Part shown: positions 16,646-56,619 of the stretch, one piece after another
How the letters are laid out: the number at the start of each line of letters is the position of its first letter
Numbering within the stretch: the first letter of the stretch is position 1
Origin: Microbacterium sp. zg-B185
Lineage (GTDB): Bacteria > Actinomycetota > Actinomycetes > Actinomycetales > Microbacteriaceae
Assembly: GCF_030246885.1 (NCBI RefSeq)
Contig: NZ_CP126739.1
Span: 1,984,001 to 2,048,000, forward strand
Reading direction: 5' to 3'
DNA: 64,000 nt
The notes under the pieces: generated by a model
Database searches by the model: none
The model's input: only the letters and a program-made list of their open reading frames with translations
Told to the model about the DNA's origin: nothing
Position numbers and translations under genes: made by a program

Positions 16646-16659
16646 GGGACTAAAGTCCC
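16646..16659. promoter_or_regulatory. DosR/DevR-type box 1, upstream of response regulator 1
   Basis: GGGACTAAAGTCCC: two 6-base arms around AA, a perfect match to the 14-base core (GGGACTWWAGTCCC) of the mycobacterial DosR/DevR site as I recall it. Its centre is 92 bases before ATG 16745. Confidence 0.75.
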
Positions 16660-16744
16660 GCCGTTATGGCGGGCGAGACGAAATCACTCTTGATTGCCGC
16701 GTCGTCCGTGCTTAGCTATTCGCACCCGGATTGGAGCGGCGGGA

Positions 16745-17443
16745 ATGAGTGATGACGCGGTGACGCGTGCCGGCTCAGCGGACGACAATGACGTCCCTGA
16801 CTCGGATGTAAGAGTGTTCGTCATCAATCACCGGGACATCGTCCGACGGGGCTTGCGGGCCGTGCTGGAAGACGCCGATGATCTCGTCGTCGTCGGGGAA
16901 TCAGCCGGCGTCGAATCGTGCGTGCCCGAGGTGGAGAGGGCCGAGCCCGACGTCGCCATCATCGACGGGACCGGCGCGCCCACCGAAGCCGTAGAAGCCG
17001 TGCGGACCCTGCGAGATGAACGTGACGATGTCCAGTTAGTGATCCTCGGCCATGCCGACGTCGAACGCACCCGACGGACCGCGATAGACGCGGGCGCGGA
17101 CGGCTATCTGCTCGATGACGCGGTGGCCGGCGATGTGCACGACGCGGTCCGTCACGCGGCACGCGGAGACCGGATGCCGGGCACGCCGGCCGGGGCCGGC
17201 GGGGCAGTTGCCGATCAGAACGAGATCGTTCCCGATCTGACCCTCCGCGAGAGACAGGTGCTGAGCCTGATCGCCGCCGGCATGACCAACCGCCAGATCG
17301 GCGAGCGGCTGGGTCTGGCGGAGAAGACCGTCAAGAACTACACCTCTGCGGTCCTGGCGAAGCTGCATGTGCAACGCCGCACGCAGGCGGCGATCTACAG
17401 CATGACCCACGCCGAGAACCCCGCTCCTCGCAGCCGAAACTAG
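16745..17443 (+). CDS. NarL/DevR-type response regulator with degenerate receiver
   Basis: A 232-residue regulator. Its LuxR-type helix-turn-helix is close to DevR/DosR (LTLRERQVLSLIAAGMTNRQIGERLGLAEKTVKNYTSAVLAKL...RRTQAAIY). The receiver keeps a phosphoacceptor-like Asp74 (AIIDG), but the acidic pair is NHRD (VFVINHRD), the switch Thr/Ser is replaced by LGH, and the conserved Lys is Asp124 (GYLLDDA). Phosphorylation is therefore doubtful. A perfect DosR-like box lies upstream, which suggests autoregulation or control by the intact paralogue at 20055. No sensor kinase adjoins it. Confidence 0.92.
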   Translation: MSDDAVTRAGSADDNDVPDSDVRVFVINHRDIVRRGLRAVLEDADDLVVVGESAGVESCVPEVERAEPDVAIIDGTGAPTEAVEAVRTLRDERDDVQLVILGHADVERTRRTAIDAGADGYLLDDAVAGDVHDAVRHAARGDRMPGTPAGAGGAVADQNEIVPDLTLRERQVLSLIAAGMTNRQIGERLGLAEKTVKNYTSAVLAKLHVQRRTQAAIYSMTHAENPAPRSRN

Positions 17444-17495
17444 TCGCCGCGCACCCAGCCGTGCCCCGCTCCGCCGCAGCCGGCTGAGCGTGAGT

Positions 17496-17520
17496 CGGCC
17501 CGGCCCGGCCCGGCCCGGCT
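17496..17520 (+). repeat. Short CGGCC tandem repeat
   Basis: Four perfect CGGCC units and a fifth CGGCT, lying between response regulator 1 and box 2. It could be slippage-prone or form part of a terminator, but nothing shows that. Confidence 0.5.
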
Positions 17521-17530
17521 GGCCCGCCGG

Positions 17531-17544
17531 AGGACCAATGGCAC
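17531..17544. promoter_or_regulatory. DosR/DevR-type box 2, upstream of small gene 1
   Basis: AGGACCAATGGCAC shares 13 of 14 bases with box 3 and then continues alike (CTTCC versus CTGCC). It matches 9 of 14 positions of the DosR core. Its centre is 106 bases before ATG 17644. Confidence 0.5.
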
Positions 17545-17643
17545 TTCCACCGACGCGGGGTTCTGACGGAATGTGGTGGTGCCGGCACTTCGCGGCGGCG
17601 ACGCCGAAACGCGTCGACGTCCGCTCAACAGGAAGGAGAGCCG

Positions 17644-17799
17644 ATGGATCGCTACCGGTTCTGCTCCGCGGCCTTGTCCTCGCTTCACGGGCACACCTTC
17701 CACGGCATCCATCCCTCTCATCGCAGCGAGCCGCCCGGTCGGGTCCATGGCGCGGACTCCGCCGGATCGCCGCTCGTTGGAGCGCAACTGCGCGGCTGA
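17644..17799 (+). CDS. Unrecognised 51-residue small protein (DosR-like island)
   Basis: This short frame is preceded by GGAAGGAGAG, a very strong ribosome site, 5 bases before the ATG. The peptide begins MDRYRFCSAALSSLHG and is rich in His, Ser and Gly (six His). It has no membrane segment and no family I recognise. Third-position GC is high, as in real genes here. It starts about 100 bases after DosR-like box 2, the same distance as the other three boxed genes, so it is probably induced with them. I cannot assign a function. Confidence 0.5.
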   Translation: MDRYRFCSAALSSLHGHTFHGIHPSHRSEPPGRVHGADSAGSPLVGAQLRG

Positions 17800-17832
17800 C
17801 CCCGCCCAACGACCGTTGCCCGGCCGCCTGCG

Positions 17833-17865
17833 ACGTCATCTGCGCGCACGCGGCGCAGATGACGT
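17833..17865 (+). terminator. 13-base perfect hairpin between the two small genes
   Basis: Arms ACGTCATCTGCGC and GCGCAGATGACGT pair perfectly around a 7-base loop, starting 33 bases after the first small gene. No T-run follows. It may be a terminator, a processing or stability element, or a protein site. Confidence 0.5.
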
Positions 17866-17870
17866 GTGGA

Positions 17871-17906
17871 GTCGGCTCTGTGCGACCACTCAGCCACACA
17901 GCCGAC
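17871..17906 (+). other. Second hairpin in the leader of small gene 2
   Basis: Arms GTCGGCTCTGTG and CACACAGCCGAC pair with one mismatch around a 12-base loop. The hairpin ends 34 bases before ATG 17941. Together with the previous hairpin it makes a strongly structured RNA leader. Confidence 0.45.
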
Positions 17907-17940
17907 TTCGCCCACCCCTTCGGCACCCACAAGGAGCGAC

Positions 17941-18093
17941 ATGAACGACTACACCTGGAACCGTCAGCCATCGGCCGGCGCACGCCCGATCACGCCCAGT
18001 GACATCCACCTGCCCCCGACTCAGCCCATCGACGTGTCCGCACTCATCGCTGCAGAGCTGCTACAGCGCGCTGTGAAGGGCCCGCCGGGTTAG
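17941..18093 (+). CDS. Unrecognised 50-residue small protein (DosR-like island)
   Basis: A 50-residue frame with the ribosome site AAGGAG placed 5 bases before the ATG. The sequence opens MNDYTWNRQPSAGARPITP, has a Pro-rich middle (HLPPTQPIDV) and ends with an amphipathic helix (SALIAAELLQRAVK). It is soluble and has no Cys. I know no family for it. It follows two hairpins and ends 7 bases before the convergent hydrolase. Its promoter may be the one at box 2 (if the hairpin is read through) or one within 17866-17940. Confidence 0.65.
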   Translation: MNDYTWNRQPSAGARPITPSDIHLPPTQPIDVSALIAAELLQRAVKGPPG

Positions 18094-18100
18094 ACCGCGA

Positions 18101-18982
18101 TCAGCGGGAGAGTGAATCGACCGCGGCGGCCACGACGCGCGCCATCCGCTTGCGGATGAGGTGGTCTCCGCCGTCGATCTTCTGCACCGCGACGTGGCGC
18201 ATCCGTTCCACGATCCGCAGTGCACCCGGCACGAGGAACGGGTCGAGCGTCCCGTACACGACCTGGATGCCGGTGTCCACGGCTGCGATGTCCGTGATCG
18301 CGGTCTGGGACTCGATCGAGTTCTCCAGCGAGAGGACGAAGGCCGTCCAGTTGGTCTCATCCACGACGAGCGCGTTCTTGATCGGCGACAGACGCGCCAC
18401 GAAGGCGGCATTGCGGATGGTGAATGCCGGGTTTCCCCGCAGGAAGTCGTAGACCTGCCGGTAGATCTTCATCGCGGCGCGGTCGATCGGATCCCCGACG
18501 ACATCCGGCGGCAGGTAGATCGGCGGGCTCACCAGCACCAGTCCGGATAGGTGCGTGGAGCGCCGCGCGCCGTACCGTGCCGCGATCAATGCGCCCATCG
18601 AATGCCCCACGAGCACGAATGGTCGTCGCAGCTCAAGCCGCCGGAGCGTCCGCTCCAGGTAATCGACGTGTTCTTCCAGTGTGAACGTCGAGCCCTCCGG
18701 AGCGGGCGAGCCCCCGAACCCGAGCAGATCGATGGCCACCACACGGTGGGTGGAGCGGATCAGCGGCACGACATTCTCGAATGTCACCGAGGAGGACGCG
18801 ATGCCGTGCACCAGGACGACGACCGGTCCGGTCCCCTCATCCAACGCCACGTGCAGCGACGGCCGGTTCCGGCGCTCCCGCAGCTTCGCCAGCGCTCCGG
18901 TCAGAACGCCCCGTGCGCTCCCATCGGCGCCGGTGCGGTCATCCCGCGGGCCTTCACCTACGCTGTCCCGCTCTGTCTCCAC
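18101..18982 (-). CDS. Alpha/beta-fold hydrolase
   Basis: A 293-residue hydrolase. VVLVHGIASSS is the oxyanion strand, VLVGHSMGAL holds the nucleophile Ser, GTLDPF holds the acid, and GGDHLIRK holds the catalytic His. All the triad is present, so it should be an active esterase or related enzyme of unknown substrate. GTG 18982 is the best in-frame start, with an alternative GTG at 19033; neither has a good ribosome site. It is divergent from hsp20, with DosR-like box 3 between them. Since such boxes are palindromic, it may be co-regulated. Confidence 0.88.
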   Translation of the reverse strand: METERDSVGEGPRDDRTGADGSARGVLTGALAKLRERRNRPSLHVALDEGTGPVVVLVHGIASSSVTFENVVPLIRSTHRVVAIDLLGFGGSPAPEGSTFTLEEHVDYLERTLRRLELRRPFVLVGHSMGALIAARYGARRSTHLSGLVLVSPPIYLPPDVVGDPIDRAAMKIYRQVYDFLRGNPAFTIRNAAFVARLSPIKNALVVDETNWTAFVLSLENSIESQTAITDIAAVDTGIQVVYGTLDPFLVPGALRIVERMRHVAVQKIDGGDHLIRKRMARVVAAAVDSLSR

Positions 18983-19132
18983 GGCGCATTCCGATCGTGG
19001 CGGCGAACGGCCGGTTGCGCCGCACTCTGTCACCGAACACCGATCCGACGACAGACGCCAGGGCCAGAGGTCCCCGCGCGGAGAGCACGGGGACCGGCAC
19101 GCGCGCCGGCGCGTCCGGGGTGCGGCGTCCAC

Positions 19133-19146
19133 GGGACCAATGGCAC
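19133..19146. promoter_or_regulatory. DosR/DevR-type box 3, upstream of hsp20
   Basis: GGGACCAATGGCAC, a 10 of 14 match to the DosR core and nearly identical to box 2. Its centre is 99 bases before the hsp20 ATG, and it lies between hsp20 and the divergent hydrolase. Confidence 0.6.
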
Positions 19147-19238
19147 TGCCCCTATGTGCGGCCGGTAGCAGAGGGTGGCCATACGCATCCGGCGTCTGCT
19201 CGGATGCGTCACTGTTCTGCTGTATGAGAGGAAAGATC

Positions 19239-19736
19239 ATGGCTCGCAATCTCGTGCGATTCGACCCGTTCATGGGACTGGAAGTGCTGCGCCACGACCT
19301 GTTGAACGACACCTTCCTCAGGGGAAGCCGCGGCAAGCTTCCGACCACCGACGTGTACACCGAAGGCGACGACGCGCTCGTCGTCGAGGCACATCTGCCC
19401 AATTTCGACGAGAAGGACGTCTCGGTGACCGTGGACCGCGGCGCTCTGGTGATCCAGGCCGAGCGGCACGAGAAGCAGGAGGACAAGGGCAAGAACTACG
19501 TGCTGCGCGAGAGCAGCAGCAGCTTCTACCGCAGCATCGCGCTACCGGAGCAGGCAGAAGACGGCAAGATCTCCGCGTCGTTCGAGAAGGGCGTGCTGAA
19601 GGTCACCGTCCCGCTCAGCGGCGGGACGTCTCCGCGCAAGATCAGCATCGGCTCCGCGCAGGGCGAGATCGGCGGCGCGGGAAAGGCCGCGCCGGCAAGC
19701 GGCGCAGCTTCGGAAGGATCGGGACCCTCGCAGTGA
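19239..19736 (+). CDS. Hsp20 / alpha-crystallin small heat-shock protein
   Basis: A 165-residue ATP-independent holdase chaperone. The alpha-crystallin domain covers about 35-140: LPTTDVYTEGDDALVVEAHLPNFDEKDVSVTV through to the conserved FEKGVLKVTVPL, which holds the GxLxxxxP-type motif. A Gly/Ala/Ser-rich tail closes the protein. AGAGGAAAG precedes the ATG. In Mycobacterium tuberculosis the related HspX is the most strongly DosR-induced protein. A DosR-like box about 100 bases upstream here makes the same logic plausible. No CIRCE or HAIR element was seen. Confidence 0.95.
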   Translation: MARNLVRFDPFMGLEVLRHDLLNDTFLRGSRGKLPTTDVYTEGDDALVVEAHLPNFDEKDVSVTVDRGALVIQAERHEKQEDKGKNYVLRESSSSFYRSIALPEQAEDGKISASFEKGVLKVTVPLSGGTSPRKISIGSAQGEIGGAGKAAPASGAASEGSGPSQ

Positions 19737-19850
19737 TGCGTCGAGCCACCACTTCCCACGTGCGTCAGCGGGCGCGACCCGGCACGCGCGGGCTAGCTCT
19801 CAGCACGTATCGCCTCCCCATTCGCGGGGTGAACTCGGACTGAGAACGCT

Positions 19851-19898
19851 GCCGGGTTCCCTCCTCGTCTGTTGGTGCTTGCGGGGAGGGGACCCGGC
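19851..19898 (+). terminator. Hairpin downstream of hsp20
   Basis: A 14-base stem with one G-T wobble (GCCGGGTTCCCTCC / GGAGGGGACCCGGC) and a 20-base loop, 114 bases after the hsp20 stop. It sits in the 318-base spacer before response regulator 2. It could end the hsp20 transcript. Confidence 0.45.
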
Positions 19899-19957
19899 TT
19901 CGTATGCGCGGCGTCGCCCTCGGGCGCCGGCGCGCGTCGCGCCCGCCCTCGGCGGGC

Positions 19958-19971
19958 GGGACTTTGGACAC
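19958..19971. promoter_or_regulatory. DosR/DevR-type box 4, upstream of response regulator 2
   Basis: GGGACTTTGGACAC, an 11 of 14 match to the DosR core. Its centre is 90 bases before ATG 20055. A CATGAT hexamer follows at 19995-20000 as a possible -10. Confidence 0.55.
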
Positions 19972-20054
19972 TATTGCGGTCTAGCGCTGCGGCGCATGAT
20001 GAAATCGGCGGCGGAATGACAGAACCACCTGCCCGGCCGCGCTGGAGAAGTGCG

Positions 20055-20771
20055 ATGATCCGGGTATTCCTCGTCGACGAGAGTGAGATCCTGCGGCTGG
20101 GCATCACGACGCTGATCCAGTCGCAACCGGGGTTCCGAGTGGTCGGCGAGTGCAAGTCGGTGCTGCAGGCGCCGGCACGCATCGCGGCCGCCGCGGTCGA
20201 TGTGGTGGTTCTGGATGCCCATCTGCAGGATGGCAGCGGGATCGAACTGTGCCAGGTGGTGCGCTTGATGCGCCCGATGCCGCGCTGCCTCGTCTTCACC
20301 GCAGACTCGGCGCGGGCCACACTCATCGCCGCCACGCTGGCCGGAGCATCCGCGTACGTCCTGAAGGGCGCGCCGCCGTCCAGCTTCGTGGAGGCACTGG
20401 TGCGGGTCTCGGACGGTGAGCAGCTGCTCCTGGCGCCGGACGGCGCGACCGGGACATCCCGCGCCGCGGTGCCGGCGACCGCCCGCGCGGATCCTGATCT
20501 CTCCCTCCGTGAACTCCAGGTGTTGCGGCTGATCACCGAGGGGATGACGAACAAGCAGATCGCGCACGTTCTGGACCTGGCAGAGAAGACCGTGAAGAAC
20601 TACGTCTCGGGACTCCTCGTGAAACTCGGCCTGGAACGGCGCACCCAGGCCGCTGTCTACGGAGTCGTCCACGGCGTGCGGCGGCCGGAGCCGGCGATGC
20701 CCGCCGTGGCACCGCGTGCGACCGACCCCGCCACGATCACGGAGCCGGTGCGTCATCCGCTCGAACCCTGA
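20055..20771 (+). CDS. NarL/DevR-type response regulator, intact receiver
   Basis: A 238-residue regulator with a complete receiver: VDES acidic pocket, Asp54 in VVLDAHLQDGSG, Thr82 (VFTADS) and Lys104 (YVLKGA). The LuxR-type helix-turn-helix is DevR-like (LSLRELQVLRLITEGMTNKQIAHVLDLAEKTVKNYVSGLLVKLGLERRTQAA). I chose ATG 20055 with GGAGAAG upstream; ATG 20016 would add 13 residues. The paralogue at 16745 has the same output domain but a degraded receiver. This intact copy is the likely master regulator of the boxed genes. Its kinase is outside the window. Confidence 0.95.
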   Translation: MIRVFLVDESEILRLGITTLIQSQPGFRVVGECKSVLQAPARIAAAAVDVVVLDAHLQDGSGIELCQVVRLMRPMPRCLVFTADSARATLIAATLAGASAYVLKGAPPSSFVEALVRVSDGEQLLLAPDGATGTSRAAVPATARADPDLSLRELQVLRLITEGMTNKQIAHVLDLAEKTVKNYVSGLLVKLGLERRTQAAVYGVVHGVRRPEPAMPAVAPRATDPATITEPVRHPLEP

Positions 20772-23980: not shown

Positions 23981-24538
23981 ATGATCGATGCTGACCACGT
24001 GGTCCTTCTCGATGAGGAGGGTCGAGCGATCGGCACCGCTCCGAAGAGCAGTGTGCACGGGACCGACACCGCCTTGCACCTCGCATTCTCCTGCCACGTG
24101 ATGAACGACGCCGGGCACGTGCTGGTGACACGTCGAGCCCTCGACAAGACCACCTGGCCGGGCGTGTGGAGCAACTCGTTCTGCGGGCATCCCCGTCCCG
24201 CCGAGCCGGTGCTCGCCGCCGTGCATCGCCGCGCAGAGTACGAGCTGGGCCTCGCGCTCGCCGACATCGAACTGGCACTGCCCCTGTTCCGCTACCGCGC
24301 CGTCGACGCGAGCGGCATCGTCGAGCACGAGGTGTGTCCGGTGTACATCGCCCGGACGAGCACCGAGCCGGTCCTGAACCCGTTGGAGGTCAGTGAGGCC
24401 AAGTGGGTCGACCCGCACGATCTGGGCACATCTCTGACCGCGACCCCGTGGGCGTTCAGTCCGTGGCTGGTCCTTCAGGCGGAGCAGCTGCACCTGTTCG
24501 ACTCCGAACCTGCGCTCCCCCGACGACGCGCGTCATGA
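23981..24538 (+). CDS. idi: Isopentenyl-diphosphate delta-isomerase, type I
   Basis: Converts IPP to DMAPP, the starter for prenyl chains. The 185-residue Nudix-fold protein shows TWPGVWSNSFCGHPRP, with the catalytic Cys in NSFCGHP, a Nudix-like AVHRRAEYELGL, and the catalytic Glu region VEHEVCPVY. Length is normal. GGAGGG lies 5 bases before the ATG. It is the first gene of the crt operon and its last codon overlaps the crtE start (ATGA). Placing idi in the operon links precursor supply to pigment output. Confidence 0.97.
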   Translation: MIDADHVVLLDEEGRAIGTAPKSSVHGTDTALHLAFSCHVMNDAGHVLVTRRALDKTTWPGVWSNSFCGHPRPAEPVLAAVHRRAEYELGLALADIELALPLFRYRAVDASGIVEHEVCPVYIARTSTEPVLNPLEVSEAKWVDPHDLGTSLTATPWAFSPWLVLQAEQLHLFDSEPALPRRRAS

Positions 24539-25590
24539 TCTCCTCCGCCACACGTGCGGCCATCGACGACGCGATCGATGGCTCGCTGAGCAGGCTGCGA
24601 CGGCGCGCGGCCGACCTCGGCGACGGATTCGAACAGCTCGCAGAGGCGATCGGCCGCGCCACGGCCGGTGGCAAGCGCACGCGGCCGGCGCTGGTGGCTG
24701 CCTCGTACACGGCCTTCGGCGGCGACTCGTCCGCGTCCCCCGCGCTGTGCTCCATCGCGGCGGCGTTCGAACTCCTGCACACGGCGTTCGTCGTGCACGA
24801 CGACGTCATCGACCACGACACGGTGCGTCGCGGCATCCCCAACGTCGCCGGCGAGTTCCGCGCGCGCGCCCGGGCGCGAGGGGCCGATGCCGACGATGCC
24901 GCGCTCGTCGGGGACGCCGCGGCGATCCTGGCCGGCGACCTGCTGCTTCACGAAGCGTCCCGCCTGGTGGCTCTCGCGGACGTGTCCGCCGACGTCCGCG
25001 CCCGCTTGTACGCACTGCTGGACGAAGCGATGTACGTCTCCGCCGCCGGCGAACTCGCCGATGTCGAGAACGCCGTGATGCCGGACTACGCCGAAGCGGA
25101 AGCCATCTTCGACGCGACCTTCAACAAGACCGCCGTGTACTCGTTCAGCGCCCCCCTCTGCGCCGGCGCCCTGCTGGCCGGGGCGCCGGCGGATGCGCTG
25201 GCCGCACTGGAGACCCAGGGCGGTCGGCTCGGACTCGCCTTCCAGCTCGTGGACGACCTCATCGGCGCGTTCGGCTCGGCCGAGCAGGCGGGGCGCGACG
25301 AGGGCGGTGATCTGCGTGAGTCAAAGCGCACTCCGCTGATCGAGCTGGCGCGCCAGAGCCCATCCTGGTCGCGGGTGAACGACGCGCTGGCGCTGGCCTA
25401 CACGGGACCGATCGCCGTCCGGGAGGCTCAGCTGGCGCTCGAGGAGAGCGGCGCCCGGTGGAGTGTGCGCACGCTGATCGTGGACACGCTCGGCGAGGTC
25501 CGCGCAGCCGTGGAGGCTCCGGCGTTTCCGCCCGCGGCCCGAACACTGCTGCGCGACATCGCGGACCGCGTCCAGGAGCGCATTCCGTGA
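24535..25590 (+). CDS. crtE: Geranylgeranyl diphosphate synthase
   Basis: A 351-residue trans-prenyl synthase that extends DMAPP/FPP with IPP to GGPP. The first Asp-rich motif is VHDDVIDHD (about 87-95), with GGKRTRP (residues 45-51) binding the diphosphate. The second Asp-rich region is QLVDDLIGAFG (about 237-247), of the DDxxG form rather than DDxxD. GGPP rather than another chain length is inferred from the crt context. It starts at ATG 24535 overlapping idi and ends overlapping the crtB GTG. Confidence 0.95.
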   Translation: MISSATRAAIDDAIDGSLSRLRRRAADLGDGFEQLAEAIGRATAGGKRTRPALVAASYTAFGGDSSASPALCSIAAAFELLHTAFVVHDDVIDHDTVRRGIPNVAGEFRARARARGADADDAALVGDAAAILAGDLLLHEASRLVALADVSADVRARLYALLDEAMYVSAAGELADVENAVMPDYAEAEAIFDATFNKTAVYSFSAPLCAGALLAGAPADALAALETQGGRLGLAFQLVDDLIGAFGSAEQAGRDEGGDLRESKRTPLIELARQSPSWSRVNDALALAYTGPIAVREAQLALEESGARWSVRTLIVDTLGEVRAAVEAPAFPPAARTLLRDIADRVQERIP

Positions 25591-26468
25591 GTCACAAGCC
25601 GACCGGGCTGGCCCTGTACGACAAAACGGCCGAGGATGCCGCGGCCGCAGTGATCTCCTCCTACTCCACATCGTTCGGCCTGGCCGCGCGCCTGCTCGGT
25701 CCGCGACCCAGGCCGCACGTGCGCAACGTCTATGCGCTGGTGCGGATCGCCGATGAGATCGTAGACGGACCCGCCACCGCGGCGGGATTGGATTCGACCG
25801 CGGCGCGCGCAGTGCTGGATGAACTCGAGGCCGAGACGGTCGCGGCGATCGGACGCGGCTTCAGCTCTAATCTGGTCGTACACGCGTTCGCCCGCACGGC
25901 GCGGGAGTGCGGAATCGGCGAAGACCTCATCGCGCCGTTCTTCCGCTCGATGCGCACCGATCTGCTCACCACCCGGCACGACGAGACCTCTCACCACGAG
26001 TACGTGTACGGGTCGGCGGAGGTGGTCGGCCTGATGTGCCTTCAGGTCTTCGTCAATGCCGGCGCGCGGCATCCCACCGCCCCCGATGATGACCTCACCG
26101 ACGGCGCCCAGCGCCTCGGTGCGGCCTTCCAGGACGTGAACTTCCTGCGCGATCAGCATCACGACGAAGACGCGCTCGGCCGCGACTACCTCGGTCTGTC
26201 AACCGGCGCATCGACCCGCGCCGAGATTCTGGATCGCATCGACGCGGACCTCGCCGCCGCGGCAGCGGTGATCCCGCGCCTGCCCGTCGACTGCCGGCGC
26301 GCGGTCACCGCCGCCCACGACCTGTTCGCGTCGCTGTCCGCCCGGCTGCGCCGGGAATCGGCATCCAGCGCGCGTGTGCGCGTTCCCAACCCCGTGAAGG
26401 CGGCCCTCGCCGCCCGCGCCTGGCTCGGCTTCGCACCGCGCCGGAGCACCCCGCGAGCACCAGCATGA
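25587..26468 (+). CDS. crtB: Phytoene synthase
   Basis: A 293-residue squalene/phytoene synthase-fold enzyme that condenses two GGPP to phytoene. SYSTSFGLAARLL marks the N-terminus, YALVRIADEIVDG contains the first Asp-rich motif (DEIVD), and GAAFQDVNFLRDQHHDEDALGRDYL contains the second. The GTG start overlaps the crtE stop (GTGA), and its own stop overlaps the crtI ATG, so translation is coupled throughout. Confidence 0.97.
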   Translation: MSHKPTGLALYDKTAEDAAAAVISSYSTSFGLAARLLGPRPRPHVRNVYALVRIADEIVDGPATAAGLDSTAARAVLDELEAETVAAIGRGFSSNLVVHAFARTARECGIGEDLIAPFFRSMRTDLLTTRHDETSHHEYVYGSAEVVGLMCLQVFVNAGARHPTAPDDDLTDGAQRLGAAFQDVNFLRDQHHDEDALGRDYLGLSTGASTRAEILDRIDADLAAAAAVIPRLPVDCRRAVTAAHDLFASLSARLRRESASSARVRVPNPVKAALAARAWLGFAPRRSTPRAPA

Positions 26469-28069
26469 CCACGAGCGAATCGACGACGGAGGATCAGCAC
26501 ATGCCCGAGGATGACAGCGGCGCCGCCATCGTGATCGGCGCCGGGATCGCGGGGCTCGCCACGGCCGCGCTGCTCGGCGCAGAGGGATGGCAGGTGACCG
26601 TCCTGGAAGCTCGGGACGAGGCCGGCGGCCGCGCCGGCTCGTGGGAGCACGAGGGCTTCCGTTTCGACACCGGACCCAGCTGGTACCTCATGCCCGAGGT
26701 CTTCGACCACTTCTTCCGCCTGCTGGGCACCTCCGCCGAACGGGAGCTGGACCTGGTGCCTCTCGACCCGGCCTACCGGGTGTACAGCCAGCCGTCGCCG
26801 CAGCACCGGCTGCCGCCCACGGACGTGCGGTCCGGGCGGGATGCCGCGACCGGCCTGTTCGAGCGGATCGAGCCCGGTGCCGGCGCCAAGCTCGATGCCT
26901 ACCTGGACTCGGCCGCGGACGCCTACGAGCTGTCCGTATCGCGGTTCCTCTACGACACGTATGAGACCACCGCGGGTCTGCGCGACCCCGTGCTGCTGCG
27001 GCGGGCCGGCCGGCTCGCTCCCCTGCTCACCCGTTCGCTGGCCAGCCATGTCGAGCGCCGGTTCACCGACCCCCGGCTGCGCCAGATCCTCGGCTATCCG
27101 GCGGTCTTCCTGGGCGGCTCGCCCTACAGCGTGCCGAGCCTGTATCACCTGATGAGCCACCTCGACCTCGACGACGGCGTCCTGTACCCCCGCGGCGGAT
27201 TCACCGAGGTGATCGCGGCCGTGCGCCGGCTCGCGATCGCCAACGGCGCGACGATCCGCACCGGCTGCGAGGTTGTCGAGATCACCACGACGGATGCCGC
27301 GGTCACGGGCGTCCGCCTCTCCGACGGTCGCGGCATCCCGGCGTCGCTGGTCGTCTCGACCGCCGACCTGCATCACACCGAGACGGCGCTTCTCCCCCCG
27401 CACCTGCAGAGCTATCCCGAGAAGTGGTGGGCGAAACGCACCCCCAGCCCCGGCGCGCTCCTGGTGCTGTTGGGGGTGGACGGAGAGCTGCCGCAACTGG
27501 CTCATCACACCCTCCTGTTCGCGGAGGACTGGCGGGCGAACTTCGACGACATCTTCCAGGAGCCCAGCCGGATCCCGGCGCCCGCCTCGCTGTACGTGTG
27601 CCGCCCCAGCGCCACCGACCCGCACGTGGCCCCATCGGGTCACGAGAACCTGTTCGTGCTGGTGCCGATCCCCGCCGACCCCGGCATCGGTCGCGGCGGG
27701 ATCGACGGCGACGGCGACGCGGCAGTCGAGACGGCTGCGGACCGCGTGATCCAGCAGATCTCGGACTGGTGCGGCATCCCGGATCTCTCCGATCGGATCG
27801 TGGTGCGGCGCACGATCGCCCCCGGTGATTTCGCCGCCGATCTGCACTCCTGGCGCGGGAACGCGCTCGGTCTGGCCCACACGCTGGGACAGAGCGCGAT
27901 GTTCCGCCCCCGCAACGCGTCCCGCAAGGTCCGCGGCCTGTCGTACGCCGGCGGGTCGGCGCTTCCCGGCATCGGACTGCCGATGTGCCTCATCTCAGCC
28001 GAGCTGGTGCTCAAGCGCCTCCGCGGCGATCGCACCCCCGGCCCCCTGCCCGAGCCGGCCAGGGTGTGA
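26465..28069 (+). CDS. crtI: Phytoene desaturase
   Basis: A 534-residue FAD-dependent CrtI-type desaturase that introduces four double bonds into phytoene to give lycopene. The N-terminal Rossmann motif is VIGAGIAGLATAALLG (about 22-37), followed by EARDEAGGRAGSWEHEGFRFDTGPSWYLMPEVF. The C-terminal carotenoid-dehydrogenase signature is SYAGGSALPGIGLPMCLISAELV. It overlaps crtB by 4 bases and ends 1 base before crtYe. An adjacent in-frame ATG, 12 codons on, may be an alternative start. Confidence 0.97.
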   Translation: MTTSESTTEDQHMPEDDSGAAIVIGAGIAGLATAALLGAEGWQVTVLEARDEAGGRAGSWEHEGFRFDTGPSWYLMPEVFDHFFRLLGTSAERELDLVPLDPAYRVYSQPSPQHRLPPTDVRSGRDAATGLFERIEPGAGAKLDAYLDSAADAYELSVSRFLYDTYETTAGLRDPVLLRRAGRLAPLLTRSLASHVERRFTDPRLRQILGYPAVFLGGSPYSVPSLYHLMSHLDLDDGVLYPRGGFTEVIAAVRRLAIANGATIRTGCEVVEITTTDAAVTGVRLSDGRGIPASLVVSTADLHHTETALLPPHLQSYPEKWWAKRTPSPGALLVLLGVDGELPQLAHHTLLFAEDWRANFDDIFQEPSRIPAPASLYVCRPSATDPHVAPSGHENLFVLVPIPADPGIGRGGIDGDGDAAVETAADRVIQQISDWCGIPDLSDRIVVRRTIAPGDFAADLHSWRGNALGLAHTLGQSAMFRPRNASRKVRGLSYAGGSALPGIGLPMCLISAELVLKRLRGDRTPGPLPEPARV

Positions 28070-28070
28070 C

Positions 28071-28418
28071 GTGCCCGGGGTCTATCTGATCGCGATTCTC
28101 GTCTCGGCCGCCGGCATCGCCGCGCTCGACGCGCGGTGGCGTCTGGCCGCCTGGGACTCGCCGGCGCGCACCGCCGTGGCGGTGCTGCTCGGCACGGCAT
28201 TCTTCCTCGCCTGGGACGCGGTGGGGATCGCGACCGGCGTGTTCGTGAAAGGTGACAGTCCGCTTCTGCTCGGAGTCGACCTGGCCCCCGAGCTGCCGGT
28301 CGAGGAACCGTTCTTCCTGGCGTTCCTGTGCTACCTGGCGCTCGTGGTCTGGTCCGCGGCCCGACGGCTGCCTCGGCTCAGTGCAGACCGGCGCAGCCTC
28401 GAGGGGACGCGCGAGTGA
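28071..28418 (+). CDS. crtYe: C50 carotenoid cyclase subunit (crtYe-type)
   Basis: A 115-residue membrane protein with three hydrophobic helices (YLIAILVSAAGIAALDA, TAVAVLLGTAFFLAWDAVGIA, FFLAFLCYLALVVWSAA). It carries the LPVEEPFFLAFLCYLALV box of the heterodimeric lycopene/C50 epsilon-cyclase family (CrtYc/Yd, CrtYe/Yf, LbtA/B). It needs its partner encoded next door. GTG 28071 is 1 base after the crtI stop. The Ye (rather than Yc or LbtA) label is inferred from the downstream lycopene elongase. Confidence 0.9.
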   Translation: MPGVYLIAILVSAAGIAALDARWRLAAWDSPARTAVAVLLGTAFFLAWDAVGIATGVFVKGDSPLLLGVDLAPELPVEEPFFLAFLCYLALVVWSAARRLPRLSADRRSLEGTRE

Positions 28419-28732
28419 CCTACCTGCTCATCGTGGTGCCGTTCGTCCTGGCCACCGCGGTCGTGACCCTCGCCACTGTCCGGCGTCCGTGGTTCGCCCG
28501 TCGGATGGGTGCGTCGGGCATCGCCGCCCTCGTCCTGGTGTGCCTCACTGCGGTGTTCGACAACCTGATGATCGCCGTCGGGCTCTTCACCTACCCGCCG
28601 GAGCACCTGAGTGGCGTGCGGATCGGACTGGCGCCCGTGGAGGACTTCGCCTATCCCCTCTGCGCGGCGTTCCTGGTGCCCGCCGTACTCACCCTCCTGA
28701 CCCGGCCGGCGCCGGTCGAGGCGACCGCATGA
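28415..28732 (+). CDS. crtYf: C50 carotenoid cyclase subunit (crtYf-type)
   Basis: A 105-residue membrane protein with three helices. It has the second-subunit signature FDNLMIAVGLFTYPPEHLSGVRIGLAPVEDFAYPLCAAFLVP, including the PVEDF box that pairs with PVEEP of the first subunit. GTG 28415 overlaps the crtYe stop, and its stop overlaps the crtEb ATG. Together the two small subunits should cyclise the ends of flavuxanthin-type C50 intermediates, or lycopene if used alone. Confidence 0.9.
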   Translation: MTYLLIVVPFVLATAVVTLATVRRPWFARRMGASGIAALVLVCLTAVFDNLMIAVGLFTYPPEHLSGVRIGLAPVEDFAYPLCAAFLVPAVLTLLTRPAPVEATA

Positions 28733-29622
28733 GCGACCGGCAGGCGCTGCGGCCCGGCGCCGTGATCCGGCAGCTGTTCATCGCCTCACGTCCGGTCAGC
28801 TGGATCAACACGGCCTACCCGTTCGCCGCGGCGTACCTGATGACCACGCGCGAGATCGACGTGACGCTGGTCGTCGGCACGCTGTTCTTCCTCGTGCCCT
28901 ACAACCTCGCGATGTACGGGATCAACGACGTGTTCGACTACGAGTCCGACCTGCGCAACCCGCGCAAAGGAGGCACGCACGGGGCGGTCCTGGACCGGCG
29001 CATGCACGCCGTCACCCTCTGGGCGGCGGTGCTGGCCTGCCTGCCGTTCGTGATCTTCCTGGTGCTCGTCGGCGATCCCTGGTCCTGGCTGGTCCTGGGC
29101 GTGAGCCTGTTCTTCGTGGTGTTCTACAGTGCGCCGCCGCTCCGGCTGAAGGAGGTGCCGTTCGCGGACTCGGTGACCTCCAGCATCCACTTCTTCTCCC
29201 CCGCCGTGTACGCGCTGGTGCTCGCCGGGGCGACCTCGAGCTGGCAGCTGACTGCGGTGATCGTCGCATTCGCGCTGTGGGGCGTGGCTTCGCACGCGTT
29301 CGGCGCCGTCCAGGACGTGGTGGCCGACCGCGAGGCAGGCATATCGTCCATCGCAACGGCCCGCGGCGCCCGATGGACGGTCTGGTTCTCGCTGGCCTGC
29401 TATCTCGCCGCGGGTGTGGTGATGCTCGTCACACCGTGGCCCGGTCCGCTCGCGGCGCTGGTGGCCGTTCCGTACCTGGCCACGGTGTGGCCCTTCCGGC
29501 GCATCACCGACGCGACCGCCGAGCGGGCGACGGCCGGCTGGCGGCGGTTCCTGTGGCTCAACCAGATCGCAGGCTTCGCCGTGACGGTGCTGCTGATCTG
29601 GGTGTGGCTGCTCACCGACTGA
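28729..29622 (+). CDS. crtEb: Lycopene elongase (UbiA-family prenyltransferase)
   Basis: A 297-residue membrane prenyltransferase that adds two DMAPP units to lycopene, giving C45/C50 carotenoids. About eight helices are visible. The first Asp-rich motif is NDVFDYESDLRNPRKGG (N-D-x-x-D-x-x-x-D) and the second is DVVADREAGISSIAT. PRKGGTHGAVL matches the CrtEb/LbtBC subgroup rather than quinone-type UbiA. It is the last gene of the operon and is followed by a strong terminator. Confidence 0.95.
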   Translation: MSDRQALRPGAVIRQLFIASRPVSWINTAYPFAAAYLMTTREIDVTLVVGTLFFLVPYNLAMYGINDVFDYESDLRNPRKGGTHGAVLDRRMHAVTLWAAVLACLPFVIFLVLVGDPWSWLVLGVSLFFVVFYSAPPLRLKEVPFADSVTSSIHFFSPAVYALVLAGATSSWQLTAVIVAFALWGVASHAFGAVQDVVADREAGISSIATARGARWTVWFSLACYLAAGVVMLVTPWPGPLAALVAVPYLATVWPFRRITDATAERATAGWRRFLWLNQIAGFAVTVLLIWVWLLTD

Positions 29623-55932: not shown

Positions 55933-56619
55933 TCAGCCCGCGACCGAACCGCGCATCCAGCTCGCTGTCAGTGCGGCCAGGTCCGCGCCGATTTCATCGG
56001 CGGGGCGCTTGCGTCCCTTGACCTCGAAGGAGTGGCCGCCGCCGTCGATCCACGCGATCGATGCGCTCCGGCACGAGGCCACCGCGTCCTCCAGCTGCGC
56101 GTGCGGGTCGACGAACGGGTCGTTGGTCCCCTCGACGAACAGCTGCGGCTGCGGCACCGCCGGCAGGTGCGCGACGCGCGCCTTGGCCGGATCGCCCGGG
56201 GGATGCAGCGGATAGCCGAGATAGATCAGCCCCGCCGGCTGGATGACGCCCTCTGCCGCAGCCATCGAGGCCATCCGTCCCCCATACGACTTGCCCGATG
56301 CCCAGACCGGGCCGCCGTCCGCCCGCTCCGTGGCCACCGACATCGCGGCCGTCCAGGCGAGGACCGAATGCGCGGCAGGCCCCGGCATCCTTCGCCCCAG
56401 CTGGACGTAGGGGAAGTTGAAGCGGAGCGTCGCAAGGCCTTCCGCCCGCATCGCGCGGGCGAAACCGACCAAGAAGGGATGCGCGTAGCCGGCGCCCGCG
56501 CCGTGGGCGATCACGATGGTCCCCCACGCGCGGTCGGGGCGGCCGTACGCCGCGTCGACCTGCACCGGGCCGGACGCAAGCGCAACGGCGAAGCTCGTCT
56601 CGGCCTCATCCGCCGTCAT
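55933..56619 (-). CDS. KANL3/Tex30-like alpha/beta hydrolase
   Basis: A 228-residue small hydrolase. IVIAHGAGAGYAHPFL is the oxyanion loop typical of the KANL3/Tex30-like group, LRFNFPYVQLGRRMPG follows, WASGKSYGGRMAS holds the nucleophile Ser, GTNDPFVDP the acid and GGGHSFE the His. The triad is complete; the substrate is unknown. ATG 56619 overlaps the stop of the upstream stress-type membrane gene (ATGA), so both come from one transcript. Confidence 0.9.
   Translation of the reverse strand: MTADEAETSFAVALASGPVQVDAAYGRPDRAWGTIVIAHGAGAGYAHPFLVGFARAMRAEGLATLRFNFPYVQLGRRMPGPAAHSVLAWTAAMSVATERADGGPVWASGKSYGGRMASMAAAEGVIQPAGLIYLGYPLHPPGDPAKARVAHLPAVPQPQLFVEGTNDPFVDPHAQLEDAVASCRSASIAWIDGGGHSFEVKGRKRPADEIGADLAALTASWMRGSVAG

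Follow-up and report, generated by a model that had tools for sequence, protein, structure and literature searches.

Can the DosR DNA code run without its sensor? DosR is the textbook oxygen- and NO-controlled dormancy regulator, and the question is raised by a locus in a 64,000-nucleotide stretch of the genome of Microbacterium sp. zg-B185 (NZ_CP126739.1, positions 1,984,001 to 2,048,000; herein the window, with features numbered from its first base unless given as genome positions). The locus combines four GGGAC-type 14-base boxes with an hsp20 gene and genes for two DosR-type response regulators (RR1 and RR2). The genus offers a natural experiment on this point: the kinase is kept in most regulator-bearing species, and one clade of regulators with a decayed receiver is found only in kinase-less genomes. 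Based on sequence comparison, the locus probably forms the center of a small regulon of the DosR/OsdR type, in a lineage that lacks the DosS-like kinase found in sister species, working by the mechanism proposed below.

All four 14-mers named in the original prediction are present on the + strand: box 1 (16646..16659; GGGACTAAAGTCCC, a perfect palindrome) 5′ of RR1, box 2 (17531..17544; AGGACCAATGGCAC) 5′ of a small open reading frame (small ORF 1), box 3 (19133..19146; GGGACCAATGGCAC) 5′ of hsp20, and box 4 (19958..19971; GGGACTTTGGACAC) 5′ of RR2. Their centers lie ~92, 106, 99, and 90 bases before the respective starts (16745, 17644, 19239, and 20055), in agreement with the 90 to 106 bases predicted; measured from the box end, the distances are 85, 99, 92, and 83 bases. 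Box 1 fits the mycobacterial DosR consensus core GGGACTWWAGTCCC (PMC2275270) at 14 of 14 positions, as had been claimed. A pattern spanning all four boxes, RGGACYWWNGNCMC, matches the 3.57-Mb one-contig genome at 13 places (14 strand-hits), and four of these places fall within 3.3 kb. As this pattern was built after the sites were seen, weight was put on other species. A sequence model trained on congener sites (129 of 140 used; this genome contributed none) has boxes 1, 3, and 4 among its top five rows in the window (box 3, 10.1 bits; box 4, 9.3 bits). The best row (56117-56130, GGGACCAACGACCC) lies inside a predicted gene and was set aside; a weak A/T signal, seen across 70 oriented sites ~37 to 42 bases away from where the box begins and considered as a promoter -10 element, was not used.

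RR2 was searched against 59 genus genomes (this one included) and had matches in every one, with identity near 50% in only some of them. We fetched 24 neighborhoods of the ~50%-identity orthologs, some of them from near-identical sister species, and scanned them with a wider pattern, [AG]GGAC[CTG]WWNGNC[AC]C, whose G at position 6 was added after seeing congener sites. The 24 loci contain 85 distinct box positions, 73 of which are intergenic in DNA that is 11% intergenic by the gene calls made in this analysis; the reversed pattern has no match in any of these loci. Twenty additional loci gave 33 boxes versus 0 for the reversed pattern. Where a congener site had a single unambiguous downstream gene (70 sites), the box ends a median of 79 bases before the start codon. 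Pfam assignments, made on one representative per cluster, place universal stress proteins (Usp), a GAF-GAF-HisKA_3-HATPase kinase (its cluster present in 23 of the loci), pyridoxamine oxidase-like proteins, and zinc-containing alcohol dehydrogenases (Zn-ADH) behind congener boxes, together with flavodoxin, phosphoketolase (XFP), PPDK, BON, and SDR proteins. In sister species, boxes of this kind thus precede a set of genes typical of DosR/OsdR regulons. Failure of relatives to conserve the sites had been named beforehand as grounds for abandoning the prediction; the boxes are instead kept across congeners. The case is carried by clustering and between-species conservation, not by genome-wide frequency, and we conclude that the boxes and the DosR-like regulon are real, conserved rather than due to chance.

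The predicted Hsp20 behind a box is borne out. The gene (19239..19736, + strand) encodes a 165-residue protein of the alpha-crystallin family (PF00011, E = 3e-19) with orthologs at E ≤ 1e-30 in 11 of 366 genomes, its own included, and a box lies upstream in 10/10 of the congener orthologs at this threshold. In eight the box stands directly ahead, at 69 to 145 bases; in two it precedes a gene that ends 13 to 14 bases 5′ of hsp20. The exact 14-mer of box 2 is found at the hsp20 genes of two relatives, G363 and G137.

Both regulators carry the Pfam domains Response_reg and GerE, and both are of the DevR type that had been predicted. RR1 (16745..17443, + strand) has a LuxR/NarL-type helix-turn-helix of the DosR type and a degenerate receiver, RR2 (20055..20771, + strand) a canonical receiver. 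Among solved structures, the closest sequence match of each is DevR/DosR (Protein Data Bank: 3c3w; E = 1.1e-30 for RR1 and 2.5e-44 for RR2), followed by VraR (5.6e-27 and 1.2e-27, respectively). They share the recognition-helix core AEKTVKNY, which occurs in 0/8 other regulators of the genome (10 of its 22 matches were compared). At the receiver positions defined by reference (D8, D9, D54, T82, and K104), RR2 reads DE/D/T/K and RR1 reads NH/D/G/D; the acidic pair of RR1 has become Asn-His, the Thr Gly, and the Lys Asp, with the phospho-acceptor Asp kept. The 10 RR1-type sequences form one clade (support 100/99) in which phosphorylation residues are missing throughout and the DNA-binding part is conserved; the helix reads AVKTVKNY in two of them (G260 and G219). 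Within 260 bases before the RR1-type genes the exact pattern is present in 5/10 cases (the window included) and a match with at most one mismatch in 8/10, compared with 6.2% of random windows from the fetched loci; no box within one mismatch was found in that interval in G260 and G219. Degenerate receivers account for 15 of 65 regulator sequences from fetched loci, 10 of RR1 type and 5 beside a DoxD-like gene, and for 0/43 of the regulators from kinase-bearing genomes. Seven canonical regulators come from kinase-less genomes: RR2, one each from G082 and G120, and four more distant ones. The DoxD-linked sequences (loci L162, L163, L164, L257, and L258) form a second degenerate DosR-like subgroup, with a box near in four of the five loci (not L163) and the phospho-acceptor Asp replaced by Gly in four of five.

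A DosS-like kinase is present at E ≤ 1e-40 in 107 of 366 genus genomes, all of which are among the 142 with the regulator at E ≤ 1e-25. With the regulator threshold at E ≤ 1e-30, 116 genomes qualify (this one included); 104 have the kinase and 12 do not, namely the ten RR1-type genomes, G155 (degenerate, DoxD-linked), and G120 (canonical). A DosS-like GAF kinase had been proposed as a check on the prediction, and no ortholog was found in this genome at E ≤ 1e-40; the best candidate is 29% identical, over the kinase part only. Scoring of all kinase candidates covered this genome and seven RR1-type relatives (G260, G219, G120, and G155 lie outside this set) and gave a best E of 2.6e-12, against 1e-123 or better in four control genomes.

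Elsewhere in the genome, 150 of 1297 first-look candidates were scored with the congener model, which returned 14 rows at 10 places at E ≤ 10; among the matches listed, box 1 is included and boxes 2 to 4 are not. One site lies 60 bases ahead of a Zn-ADH gene whose product shares 86% identity with a boxed Zn-ADH of a congener. Another (G000:C1:1148712, in this genome) lies 136 bases before a 71-residue ORF that is followed by a gene with a thioester domain (Pfam TED). The gene that follows RR1 in six relatives is similar to the cluster of this TED gene and has a box 80 to 150 bases ahead (6/6 examined); Pfam, run on one of these six genes, finds TED and DUF5979. Boxed TED-type genes are seen in L155-L158, L254, and L256 as well as in this genome, which suggests a surface protein in the regulon. 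Three intergenic sites are unproven candidates: 1017999 (between genes for a pyridoxal-dependent decarboxylase and CBAH), 2903361, and 3008412, the last with a gene ahead that begins like what we take to be EF-Tu. Sites inside predicted genes (740476, 1563098, and 2471249) were not considered further. Universal stress proteins had been suggested as further members; the genome has six Usp matches, of which 0/6 are boxed (match plus 1.5 kb on each side). The regulon had been predicted to be self-contained; a DosR-type regulon stands, and the self-containment does not, with a boxed Zn-ADH and a boxed thioester-domain protein encoded elsewhere. It is also small.

In the mechanism that we propose, RR1 and RR2 would bind the GGGAC boxes 83 to 99 bases before starts (69 to 145 before hsp20 in relatives) and so activate the two regulator genes themselves, hsp20, and a handful of scattered genes, among them those for Zn-ADH and the thioester-domain surface protein. 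RR1 would act without phosphorylation, its output being set by its amount through autoregulation or by some other input. RR2, if it needs phosphate, may be served by a noncognate kinase or by acetyl phosphate. Hypoxia, NO, and stasis, suggested in the original prediction, are candidate signals, and the output would presumably be stress or stasis protection through Hsp20.

Several findings weigh against this reading. The phospho-acceptor Asp is kept in 10/10 RR1-type regulators. RR2 groups in the tree with the G082 regulator, but on a long branch; as its receiver is canonical, phosphorylation may still matter. G120, one kinase-less genome, has a canonical regulator, so that kinase loss need not be accompanied by receiver decay. 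The kinase survey scored three candidates per genome, and near genome position 2302605 there is an 813-residue GAF kinase (two GAF domains, HisKA_3, and HATPase_c) with an adjoining regulator gene, so that cross-talk is possible. Box 2 is scored poorly by the congener model (6.3 bits, tenth row in the window), small ORF 1 behind it has no convincing relative in the fetched loci (no genome-wide search was made), and no match of that model in this genome is significant alone (best E = 0.31). The pattern RGGACYWWNGNCMC is not enriched genome-wide, with 14 hits versus 20 for the reversed control. As the pattern is near background, the genome-wide background frequency that the original prediction had regarded as fatal is, taken literally, what we find. 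With the wider pattern the counts are 34 versus 22 reversed in this genome and 1085 versus 1054 over the 59 genomes, with no clear excess (494 versus 433 in 22 kinase-bearing genomes and 591 versus 621 in the other 37); genome-wide frequency as proof of the boxes failed.

The strongest alternative, which we nevertheless regard as unlikely, is a conventional two-component regulon in which an unlinked kinase such as the 813-residue protein phosphorylates RR2, and RR1 adds minor modulation or pairs with RR2 in a heterodimer. RR2 has every receiver residue, the domains of the 813-residue protein are those of a GAF sensor kinase, and there is a precedent in the Streptomyces kinase SCO0203, whose second cognate regulator is the orphan SCO3818 (PMC5069765). 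However, it is this 813-residue protein that is 29% identical to the DosS-like kinases over the kinase part only, with its own regulator gene adjoining, and each of the seven HisKA_3 matches in the genome already has a regulator-like gene near. Decay is a poorer account still, and we give it little credence: the kinase would have been lost, RR1 would be disappearing, and the boxes would be relics. The missing kinase ortholog and the unboxed Usp loci are as it would have them, but RR1-type genes are kept in 10 genomes of one clade with a conserved DNA-binding part, and boxes persist before RR1 (8/10 with at most one mismatch), before the TED-type gene (6/6), and before hsp20 (10/10). Chance matches in GC-rich DNA, to which the near-background counts would point and which could leave box 2 alone weak or idle, are highly improbable given the clustering, the intergenic placement, and the conservation, boxes 1 and 3 being themselves conserved.

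The preferred reading, a regulon lacking the sister species' kinase, can be set beside known systems. Atypical, phosphorylation-independent response regulators are a recognized class, which RR1 resembles: its acidic pair, Thr, and Lys are gone and its output domain is intact; among the titles found in the literature, none describes such a regulator in the DosR family, and titles and abstract openings describe no such regulon in this genus. The locus is like mycobacterial DosRS/DevRS in its box core (GGGACTWWAGTCCC), in the helix AEKTVKNY, and in having boxed genes for an Hsp20 and a regulator. Box 3 begins 106 bases before the hsp20 start and is placed like the 20-base site that PMC2275270 lists for Rv2031c, which starts at -106. 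Unlike DosRS/DevRS, it has no DosS-like kinase ortholog that we could find, and it has an additional regulator whose receiver is degenerate, few visible targets, and unboxed Usp loci. According to PMC5069765, OsdKR of Streptomyces coelicolor is likewise a DosR-type regulator in a nonmycobacterial actinobacterium with the same type of site, its core regulon lying near the regulator and its targets including genes for a zinc-containing dehydrogenase and a pyridoxamine 5′-phosphate oxidase-type protein. The same source gives the kinase OsdK as present there, unlike here, and the OsdKR consensus as AGGGCCGATCGGCCCT, compared with mostly GGGACCWWNGNCCC in this genus. Set against the features of DosRS/OsdKR, regulator, helix, and boxes are present and no ortholog of the kinase partner was found; hsp20 and Zn-ADH are boxed and the six Usp are not, and the receiver of RR2 is canonical and that of RR1 is not. 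The regulation would be of the DosR/OsdR kind, but because the kinase feature fails, we file the system as a kinase-less variant rather than as a plain member.

Two small ORFs lie between RR1 and hsp20. Small ORF 1 (17644..17799, + strand, 51 residues) is a doubtful gene: the open frame predicted behind box 2 exists, with a ribosome-site-like AGGAAGGAG ahead, and the lack of relatives among the fetched loci led us to reject it as a conserved gene. It is followed by a hairpin (17833..17865; 13-bp perfect arms, 7-base loop, no T run) and by small ORF 2 (17941..18093, + strand, 50 residues); as 396 bases and the hairpin intervene, box 2 is doubtful as the promoter of small ORF 2. Small ORF 2 belongs to a family of 32 to 57 residues with the core P-[SAT]-D-x-x-LPPT-[QEH]-P-I-D (LPPTxPID for short), present at E ≤ 0.01 in 51 of 366 genomes, this one included, although the weakest matches may be chance. 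Relatives were read cleanly in 29 of 30 fetched loci, some of them identical, with LPPT in the core (LPST in one). Differences by codon position over nine family sequences number 234, 159, and 501. In eight of the 29 loci a box lies no more than 120 bases from the start, three members lie directly behind a boxed hsp20, and the rest have neither; some members, such as the PAIDPAAIHLPPTEPID type, have no box near. A second copy in this genome (G000:C1:1014361-1014462) is preceded, at 99 bases, by the weak box AGGACGAAGGCCCC. The window copy has no Pfam or NCBIfam match, its string LPPTQPID was not found in the papers searched, and its AlphaFold model contains one helix (residues 33 to 46; mean pLDDT 80.9, pTM 0.37). 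These observations point to an undescribed family with ties to the regulon. More tentatively, and at somewhat less than even likelihood, we suggest that a DosR branch may have become uncoupled from its sensor after kinase loss, the RR1-type regulators dispensing with the phospho-switch and keeping the DosR DNA code; the regulon would then be controlled by the amount of regulator or by a new ligand, with LPPTxPID proteins as Hsp20 regulon partners and the thioester-domain surface protein among its targets.

Between the small ORFs and hsp20, a divergent gene for an alpha/beta hydrolase occupies 18104..18979 on the - strand, its start ~150 bases from box 3. Outside the box region, the window also contains a gene run at ~23981-29622 that resembles what we take to be a carotenoid cluster, presumably with genes for isopentenyl isomerase, prenyl transferase, and phytoene synthase and desaturase.

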